64,000 nt of DNA, from positions 1,984,001-2,048,000 of the forward strand of contig NZ_AP012325.1 of the NCBI RefSeq assembly GCF_001025195.1, given 5' to 3'. Of this stretch, positions 8,096 through 64,000 are shown piece by piece (the stretch's first letter is position 1; each line of letters starts with the position of its first letter). The translations under genes and the position numbers were made by a program. Origin of the DNA: Bifidobacterium catenulatum DSM 16992 = JCM 1194 = LMG 11043. Lineage in GTDB: Bacteria; Actinomycetota; Actinomycetes; Actinomycetales; Bifidobacteriaceae. The notes beneath the pieces are model-generated. The model saw nothing but the letters and a program-made list of their open reading frames with translations. It was not told the origin of the DNA and did not search any database.

Positions 8096-8105
8096 AACAT
8101 GTGAA

Positions 8106-8222
8106 TGCGGCGGCGTGCTACTCTCCCACACCCTCTCGAGTGCAGTACCATCGCCGTGCCAGGCCTTAGCTTCCGGGTTCGGAAAGGGACCGGGCGTCTC
8201 ACCTGGGCCATGACCACCGCAA
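8106..8222 (-). rRNA. rrf: 5S rRNA (operon 1)
   Basis: The minus strand reads GCGGTGGTCATGGC and CCGAACCCGGAAGCTAAG, the conserved 5S helix I and loop sequences. The closing arm GCCGCCGC pairs with the 5' end. Ends are set from this pairing and may be off by two or three bases. Confidence 0.93.
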
Positions 8223-8447
8223 AACCACTCTAAACGGCCAACCCCCAACCGGGATCGGCCGGCAACGGAACCAGCCACACGACCGATTCCGGTCGTGGCG
8301 GTCCGGGAACCGGACAACGGACGCAAGCAAATCAAACGCCTTACCAGTATCGTCGTCGTGACCACAAGAAACAGCGTTCCTTGCCATCCAACGAGAAAAC
8401 CACCACAGGACGAGACCCAATCCCCAACCAGGGGATCGGAAAGAGTG

Positions 8448-13498
<5,051 letters not shown>

Positions 13499-19278: not shown

Positions 19279-19340
19279 ACGCCTATCATCGTCCGCTTTT
19301 CATATGTTGTTACTTTTTTTCAAGATTAGCCGATGATTTT

Positions 19341-19406
19341 ACAAAAGAAGTGACGATCGTCGCATGACATCGATGGTTTGCCCGGCTTAGAATAAAGGCA
19401 CAACAG
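19341..19406 (+). promoter_or_regulatory. promoter/regulatory region of peptide gene 1, conserved with 55593-55658
   Basis: The box ACAAAAGAAGTGACGA (19341) is followed 47 bases from its start by TAGAAT (19388-19393) and then AAGGCACAACAG. The same elements occur before the second peptide gene at exactly the same spacing (66 bases end to end), while the DNA between them differs. A TGACAT lies at the -35 position. I infer a shared activator site around -60. Confidence 0.65.
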
Positions 19407-19508
19407 AAGAACGAAGAAAAAAGATAAACACAATACAGACTTACGGCAGCGGCCAGAGGAATGACAAGAAGAAAAGACGCGCCGCCAAGCCAAGTGAAAG
19501 GAAACATC

Positions 19509-19631
19509 ATGAAGAACAACACTTTCGACCAGATCATCAACTCCGACCTCGCCTCCATCGACCCGGGCTTCGGCCAGTTCGCACTCGCCAAGGCCTCTGC
19601 CGACCTGATGAAGAAGGTCCTCAACAAGTAA
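19509..19631 (+). CDS. 40-residue peptide, member 1 of a paralogous pair
   Basis: The peptide begins MKNNTFDQIINSDLAS and ends FALAKASADLMKKVLNK. It is 22/40 identical, without gaps, to the peptide at 55726. Conserved positions are NTFDQI, N11, S16, D18, G20, QFA, AKAS, L33, KK and the last Lys. There is no Cys, no double-Gly leader and no signal peptide. The C-terminal half can form an amphipathic basic helix. GTGAAAGGAA precedes the ATG. It has its own promoter region (19341) and terminator (19709). Function is unknown; a secreted or membrane-active peptide, a signal, or a small regulatory protein are all possible. Confidence 0.75.
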   Translation: MKNNTFDQIINSDLASIDPGFGQFALAKASADLMKKVLNK

Positions 19632-19708
19632 GACCGCTTCCTAGACGGAAGGCAAGGCGCAGGCGCGACAGCACCCCGCTCCTCTTCTTTCCAATCCTTA
19701 AATCACAT

Positions 19709-19754
19709 AGCGGGAGGCCGCGGTTCCAAACGGAATCGCGGCCTCCCGCTTTTC
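19709..19754. terminator. terminator between peptide gene 1 and the MFS gene
   Basis: Perfect 14-bp stem AGCGGGAGGCCGCG / CGCGGCCTCCCGCT followed by TTTT on the plus strand. The convergent MFS gene ends 12 bases away, so it probably serves both. Confidence 0.9.
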
Positions 19755-25250: not shown

Positions 25251-25413
25251 GATTTGTCATCCTTTCAGAGGCAGGTACGTGCCTCACGATCCGTTGTAAA
25301 GGGATTTCTTTCGGTGCCTCGCCTTGCGGCTTACAACTTCGACAAAGCCACAATTCAAAGCGTTAATTTATTTCTTTGGTTTAGCGAAGGTTCTCTTCGT
25401 CGAGCCACGTTCC

Positions 25414-55496: not shown

Positions 55497-55592
55497 CAGG
55501 CAACGGCACTCAGAATCAGCTTCCACGAAGCACCCATGCATATGCAATCCGCCTCTGTCACAAGCATTTACTTCTGTTTACCAGATGAAAAT

Positions 55593-55658
55593 ACAAAAGA
55601 AGCGACGAAACCGGCGAGACCCCGCACCAGAGGAATGCTTACAATGAAGCCACAACAG
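55593..55658 (+). promoter_or_regulatory. promoter/regulatory region of peptide gene 2, conserved with 19341-19406
   Basis: ACAAAAGAAGCGACGA (55593) is followed by TACAAT (55640-55645) and AAGCCACAACAG at the same distances as before peptide gene 1. The intervening bases are not conserved, so the elements rather than recent duplication explain the match. Confidence 0.65.
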
Positions 55659-55725: not shown

Positions 55726-55848
55726 ATGCAGAGCAACACCTTCGACCAGATCGCCAACGCCAACACCGTTTCCATGGATGCCGGTCTCAGCCAGTTTGCC
55801 TTCGCCAAGGCCTCCTCCACCTTGTTTAAGAAGGCTTTCAGCAAGTAA
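55726..55848 (+). CDS. 40-residue peptide, member 2 of a paralogous pair
   Basis: Starts MQSNTFDQIANANTVS and ends FAFAKASSTLFKKAFSK. It matches the peptide at 19509 at 22 of 40 positions with equal length. GTGAAAGGAAG precedes the ATG as in gene 1. It is a single-gene unit with its own terminator (55871), between the broken LacI gene and the trxB/ahpC pair. No Cys or cleavage signal is seen. Function unknown. Confidence 0.75.
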   Translation: MQSNTFDQIANANTVSMDAGLSQFAFAKASSTLFKKAFSK

Positions 55849-55870: not shown

Positions 55871-55915
55871 AACGCCTCGGCTGCTGTGATGAACCGGTCC
55901 AGCAGCCGAGGCGTT
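55871..55915. terminator. shared terminator of peptide gene 2 and the thioredoxin reductase gene
   Basis: Perfect 15-bp stem AACGCCTCGGCTGCT / AGCAGCCGAGGCGTT with a 15-base loop. Convergent genes end on both sides. Confidence 0.8.
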
Positions 55916-58699: not shown

Positions 58700-58710
58700 A
58701 GACAGTTGGA

Positions 58711-58827
58711 TGCGGCGGCGTGCTACTCTCCCACACCCTCTCGAGTGCAGTACCATCGCCGTGCCAGGCCTTAGCTTCCGGGTTCGGAAAGGGACCGGGC
58801 GTCTCACCTGGGCCATGACCACCGCAA
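58711..58827 (-). rRNA. rrf: 5S rRNA (operon 2)
   Basis: Same sequence as the 5S gene at 8106, offset 50,605 bases. Confidence 0.93.
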
Positions 58828-59052
58828 AACCACTCTAAACGGCCAACCCCCAACCGGGATCGGCCGGCAACGGAACCAGCCACACGACCGATTCCGGTCG
58901 TGGCGGTCCGGGAACCGGACAACGGACGCAAGCAAATCAAACGCCTTACCAGTATCGTCGTCGTGACCACAAGAAACAGCGTTCCTTGCCATCCAACGAG
59001 AAAACCACCACAGGACGAGACCCAATCCCCAACCAGGGGATCGGAAAGAGTG

Positions 59053-64000
<4,948 letters not shown>

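Follow-up and report, generated by a model that had tools for sequence, protein, structure and literature searches.

What are the two orphan genes for 40-residue peptides found in a 64,000-nucleotide stretch of the Bifidobacterium catenulatum DSM 16992 chromosome, and what switches them on? The stretch (the window, G000:1984001-2048000, where G000 is this genome, one contig of 2,079,525 bp) had been described in an earlier note, which saw in the two genes, here members 1 and 2, a real, co-regulated family of two. Co-regulation is strongly supported by homologues, by the shared upstream block and by co-occurrence with a gene for an AraC-type regulator; the family itself is larger, with four members in this genome. 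From comparisons across the genus, we consider it very probable that the AraC-type protein regulates the peptide genes. Its gene, the two further members and the other peptide classes described below lie beyond what the note had observed.

The two window genes are as first described. Each open reading frame (ORF) has 40 codons, the peptides are identical at 22 of 40 positions without gaps (55%), and the shared box ACAAAAGAAGYGACGA matches exactly at 19341 and 55593. Counted from the start of the box, the -10 hexamer follows at 47 bases and CACAACAG at 58 bases at both loci, and GTGAAAGGAA lies upstream of each start codon. A consensus -35 was not found at member 2 (0 promoter-like sites in the promoter scan). 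Stable hairpins are present at both loci where strong terminators had been proposed, but they are absent from the output of the terminator scan. A third paralogue, 78% identical, lies at G000:2069604-2069723, and a fourth member, with a 43-residue ORF, at G000:1124955-1125083 (-).

The 16-base box alone, allowing up to three mismatches, has 4 matches in the window against 1.03 expected, a marginal result (2 of 100 shuffles reach 4), and is not enriched genome-wide (34 matches versus 46 for the reversed control). As the box does no better than this control, it is the larger block that carries the claim. When the upstream block is modelled from its sequence (R1, from alignment A2), the window sites score expectation values (E) of 5.4e-24 and 4.2e-20 and the third site 1.1e-23, all three being in the training set; the fourth site in this genome, outside that set, is found at E 7.1e-4 ahead of the 43-residue ORF. 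The whole operator-promoter block of ~100 bp is far beyond chance. R1 also picked up sites ahead of ORFs absent from the results of the peptide query, and these sites were added in a second model (R2, alignment A3). Among 112 genomes of the genus (the protein search covered 101), R2 finds 59 sites at E<=0.05 in 30 genomes, although its E-values for training sites are not independent, as it was trained on part of them. When ORFs are read from the longest start that has a ribosome-binding site, 52 of the 59 sites lead into one of 38-46 codons, which begins 14-173 bases downstream, and so do 49 of the 50 sites at E<=1.5e-7 (the exception is G042:C2:400077), compared with 159 of 5000 random window positions (3.2%). 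The leaders are ~70-180 nucleotides long.

The genomes with convincing blocks are exactly those that carry the AraC-type gene (27/27 versus 0/85). This gene, G000:776776-777516 in B. catenulatum, encodes a protein with the AraC-family C-terminal double helix-turn-helix domain (PF12833/PF00165); 27 of the 112 genomes have it, each in a single copy, and the remaining 85 gave no match at E<=1e-30. R2 also hits three genomes outside this set (G017, G022 and G062), at E-values of 0.0105-0.0491 and with no ORF of 38-46 codons. In nine of the 27 carriers (G003, G016, G018, G042, G052, G066, G084, G105 and G107), the AraC match has a divergently oriented operator at a distance of 21-55 bp, which in 8/27 leads into a peptide gene. 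An AraC-family gene adjoins a peptide gene in B. pullorum, B. goeldii and B. phasiani, the last having peptide genes on either side. The chance of such co-occurrence, 1/C(112,27) or ~1.6e-26, ignores relatedness, and we therefore built a tree from one neighbouring phosphatase (30 genomes searched, 12 AraC-carrying and 18 not; 27 matched; G029, in two pieces, omitted, leaving 26 rows). The AraC trait changes at least six times on this tree, and the independent pairs on supported branches are concordant in four of four cases.

A histidine phosphatase and a uracil/xanthine-type permease (the names are our own reading) are among the neighbours in all 20 AraC regions fetched out of the 27. The phosphatase is also present in 15 of the 18 AraC-less genomes searched and is therefore no specific mark of the system; of the genomes aligned, 11 of 12 carriers and 0 of 14 non-carriers have the AraC gene within 1.5 kb of it. 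In the AraC model the N-terminal half consists wholly of helices and is predicted with confidence, and fold searches gave no match indicating what this domain binds. The nearest relatives of the regulator outside Bifidobacterium appear to be Firmicutes-type, at ~47-60% identity. Among 395 other genomes from its own phylum, none has a match at E<=1e-30. A horizontal origin of the regulator is possible.

The operator layout, judged from the alignment, is of the AraC type. The conserved columns of A3 show a period of 10.5 bp (p 0.0025; 12 periods tried against 2000 shuffles) and repeat directly after 20 bp (z 2.9, p 0.001; 1000 shuffles, best of 29 shifts), the repeat stopping just short of the -35. 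By analogy with the araI layout, two monomers of a double helix-turn-helix protein, each contacting two major grooves, would fit this operator. An operator-only model of 55 positions (R3) reports four sites at E<=1e-6 in this genome and then a fifth at E 0.137; in five AraC-less genomes its best score is E 0.0576, with nothing under 0.05. Within the reach of these models, only peptide genes are likely to be targets. Co-occurrence, divergent adjacency and the lack of a further R3 target thus suggest that the activator controls a regulon made up solely of small-peptide genes.

The peptides fall into several classes, some of them without detectable similarity to one another. The homologues that the note had proposed to look for were found by protein search in 17 of 101 genus genomes at E<=0.1; the named-genome collection gave 13 loci, every one from Bifidobacterium, and a collection of genomes and metagenomes gave 174 proteins at E<=1; of the 120 matches listed, those with a name are Bifidobacterium or an unspecified hypothetical protein. 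No library family covers the peptides, with no Pfam or NCBIfam match above cut-off. We name the classes A (that of the window), B (DPSxGxYAL), C (IFSAIKRGFE), D, E and F. Positions M1, L14, A15, S16, D18, P19, A25, K35 and K40 are near-invariant in 58 sequences; a mid-peptide DP is common to classes A, B and D, and class C has no evident similarity to them. Tandem pairs of peptide ORFs under one promoter occur in G084/G052 and G024/G012. A member-2-like copy at G099:C4:318-561 (L167) has a recognisable frame (59% identical) without an intact ORF of 36-48 codons having a start and ribosome-binding site. MT837054.1 (L154), listed as a phage and an unverified faecal scaffold, has the block, the leader and the first codons of a class A gene followed by unrelated sequence, and looks like a bifidobacterial fragment.

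The ratio of non-synonymous to synonymous substitution rates (dN/dS), also suggested as a check, is 0.47 between the window copies, with only ~25 synonymous sites; it is 0.41-0.49 among three copies in this genome and ranges from 0.11 to 1.10 over 11 pairs. The homologues and the ratio for the window copies, two outcomes that could have refuted the note, both speak for it. The codon index is 0.86 and 0.80 for the window peptides versus 0.59-0.80 for 26 hand-picked ORFs, some possibly on the wrong strand. These values point to translated, well-expressed genes, falling short of proof, and together with the ribosome-binding sites and hairpins predict that the peptides are made in quantity.

What might the peptides do? 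AlphaFold places helices at residues 3-16 and 19-38 at low confidence (mean predicted local distance difference test score 71). The basic amphipathic C-terminal helix of the earlier note is not supported for the two window members: their second half is basic and a helix is predicted there, but their amphipathicity does not exceed that of shuffled sequences. Of the 22 peptides tested in the wider set, four do exceed it, all of classes D/E (p 0.001-0.023, uncorrected). A basic second half with a neutral or acidic first half is found in all 18 peptides of classes A, B, D, E and F computed. We read the peptides as the output of the switch, since the regulon has no further target that can be detected and since peptides unlike one another lie behind its operator; with the charge layout kept in most classes, the same two points favour membrane effectors. 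On balance, then, we favour a set of four genes that share one tandem-repeat operator and promoter, each encoding a peptide of 40 to 43 residues, and that would be switched on by one AraC-type activator whose gene lies elsewhere in the chromosome. The activator would bind the repeats, about one monomer to each 20-bp unit up to a point just before the -35, and activate transcription; the peptides would be the abundant effectors of the regulon. In the least supported step, these leaderless two-helix peptides might act at the membrane, from inside or outside the cell, a role that we propose tentatively and at rather less than even confidence.

Several observations weigh against this reading. The training set of each of the three models includes some of the sites that the model finds. 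The AraC and peptide genes lie apart in 18 of the 27 carriers, this genome included, the AraC-adjacent site of G105 is weak (E 0.0156) with no peptide ORF behind it, and the sign test cannot reach significance with four concordant pairs. The exceptional site, G042:C2:400077-400175 (-) (L060), has a block that closely resembles the one of member 2 (E 2.2e-16) and no peptide ORF behind it. R3 found no further convincing target in this genome, but it would pass over any shorter or degenerate operator in front of other genes. As regards the membrane, the best 18-residue hydrophobic moments of the window peptides are not above shuffles (p 0.38 and 0.66), the four class C-type peptides computed do not show the charge layout, and no signal peptide was seen in the peptides and no dedicated exporter identified. 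Finally, relatives of class C are found in 17 of 112 genomes at E<=0.01, seven of them without the AraC gene, and those read in AraC-less genomes, with the extra copies of G051 and G056, sit behind a block that looks different by eye. Because of these relatives behind another block, class C is not tied to the AraC gene; it appears from this distribution to be older than the switch or independent of it, and the switch would therefore have recruited class C in some species.

The class C-like peptides (RGxExSGxxAL...GYSES, ~40-44 residues; L187-L197) come from G056 (two), G051, G071, G062 (two), G041, G109, G110, G038 and G030, and their block has a conserved-looking TTTTxxAAA..TTTTCAxAAGTCG... 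They may form a second regulon of small peptides, parallel to this one and under a regulator of its own.

The main rival, which we judge unlikely, is that the peptides are feedback regulators, small helical proteins that bind the AraC activator and damp or tune it, as the ANR protein Aar does AggR in Gram-negative pathogens. The adjacency in 9/27 genomes would agree with this, as would the finding of classes A, B, D, E and F only in AraC-carrying genomes; Aar is itself activated by AggR, its family comprises proteins of 39-80 residues predicted to be helical (PMC4038620), and it works through protein-protein contact (PMC10148876). Against feedback, R3 detects no other target in this genome to restrain, several copies per genome and unrelated classes under one operator would be unexpected for a single binding partner, and the library searches give the peptides no sequence match to a known family.

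Rather unlikely too, in our estimate, is that an AraC protein with a helical sensor domain, dedicated to small-peptide genes, senses the peptides or their product, with unrelated peptides drawn under one operator. A separate reading is an autoinducing loop in which the peptides would be precursors of a signal, processed, exported and sensed by the helical N-terminal domain. Targets confined to peptide genes and the adjacency of AraC and peptide genes in 9/27 would suit such a loop, and so would the confidently predicted helical domain; however, no exporter or processing gene is a consistent partner except the phosphatase and permease, most AraC-less genomes tested keep these two close together, or at least the phosphatase, and no fold match tells what the domain binds. 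We regard this as distinctly unlikely.

It is improbable that shared ancestry alone explains the co-occurrence, another general factor driving the block with the AraC gene as a bystander. Such an account could point to the 18/27 genomes in which the genes are unlinked and to a tree from one gene only, but it does not sit well with the exact 27/27 and 0/85 match, the concordance through at least six changes of state, the AraC-type repeat spacing and the back-to-back arrangement in 9/27. That the transcripts act as RNAs, as a leader element or small RNA with incidental ORFs, is highly improbable, for despite the conserved CACAACAG near the predicted start and leaders of such length, 10 leaders gave no consensus structure (0 pairs), leader folding is unexceptional (z -1.4 and -1.1), the peptide loci have no Rfam hit, and ORF length, residues and codon bias are kept.

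The features of the two loci are collected below. Two ribosomal RNA operons, at 8105-13498 and 58710-64000 (-) of the window, flank the region with both peptide genes and have equal 5S and 23S scores. A match to the msiK RNA family lies at 25253-25312 (-) (61.3 bits versus a gathering score of 33).

Table 1 Positions in the window of the features at the two peptide loci
Feature	Position	Strand	Remarks
Member 1, first operator repeat: TCAAGA 19320-19325, CCGATGA 19330-19336	19320..19336	+	A3 conserved columns, 20-bp direct repeat
Member 1, second operator repeat (the box): ACAAAA 19341-19346, GTGACGA 19350-19356	19341..19356	+	A3 conserved columns, 20-bp direct repeat
Member 1, -35-like hexamer ATGACA	19364..19369	+	18 bases 5' of -10
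Member 1, -10-like hexamer TAGAAT	19388..19393	+	
Member 1, conserved CACAACAG	19399..19406	+	Near predicted transcript start
Member 1, ribosome-binding site GTGAAAGGAA	19494..19503	+	
Member 1, peptide gene, 40 residues, class A	19509..19631	+	Stop included
Member 1, hairpin, likely terminator	19709..19750	+	-42.6 kcal/mol, z -10.4; missing from terminator scan
Member 2, half-site CAGATGA of first operator repeat	55582..55588	+	TCAAGA half diverged
Member 2, second operator repeat (the box): ACAAAA 55593-55598, GCGACGA 55602-55608	55593..55608	+	
Member 2, -10-like hexamer TACAAT	55640..55645	+	
Member 2, conserved CACAACAG	55651..55658	+	
Member 2, ribosome-binding site GTGAAAGGAA	55710..55719	+	
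Member 2, peptide gene, 40 residues, class A	55726..55848	+	Stop included
Member 2, hairpin, likely terminator	55871..55915	+	-38.9 kcal/mol, z -7.1; missing from terminator scan

Bifidobacterial sugar regulators have been surveyed (PMC4746261); the survey left out of account AraC proteins that do not adjoin sugar genes and records no AraC protein for B. longum NCC2705. With the present analysis, orphan 40-residue 'hypothetical proteins' gain a predicted regulator, an operator and a genus-wide pattern of presence and absence, and a search that starts from the promoter block uncovers small peptides missed by the peptide query. Bacteria of the B. adolescentis and B. catenulatum type inhabit the human gut; on the rather unlikely reading in which the AraC protein senses the peptides or their product, they would have a peptide communication or effector system, one switch governing a set of peptides particular to each genome.

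Neither AraC-type activators nor small-peptide families are new in themselves. No report of a dedicated AraC-type switch whose only detectable targets are small peptides was found in the literature searched, which comprised open-licence full texts only. Phenol-soluble modulins are short, helical and leaderless, as is predicted for the present peptides, and are made in several copies under one direct activator; they differ in organism and in regulator, and the amphipathicity of the window members is not significant (p 0.38, 0.66). The ANR family resembles our set in being small proteins (39-80 residues) under an AraC-type activator (PMC4038620), with activation here predicted from co-occurrence and the operator layout. 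Known ANR proteins bind AggR and H-NS (PMC10148876). They are Gram-negative, however, whereas the Bifidobacterium peptides are of several unrelated classes and have no Pfam or NCBIfam match above cut-off. The closest curated model for the regulator is TIGR04094, at 131.3 bits, under its 200-bit cut-off; neighbours in the 20 AraC regions were clustered. TIGR04094-type regulators are encoded beside YSIRK surface antigens, and one of them, Spy1337 of Streptococcus pyogenes, is likewise divergent from its target gene and is proposed to activate both the target and itself (PMC7098570). Unlike in that system, the divergent neighbour here is a gene for a 40-residue peptide, and the targets lie unlinked elsewhere.
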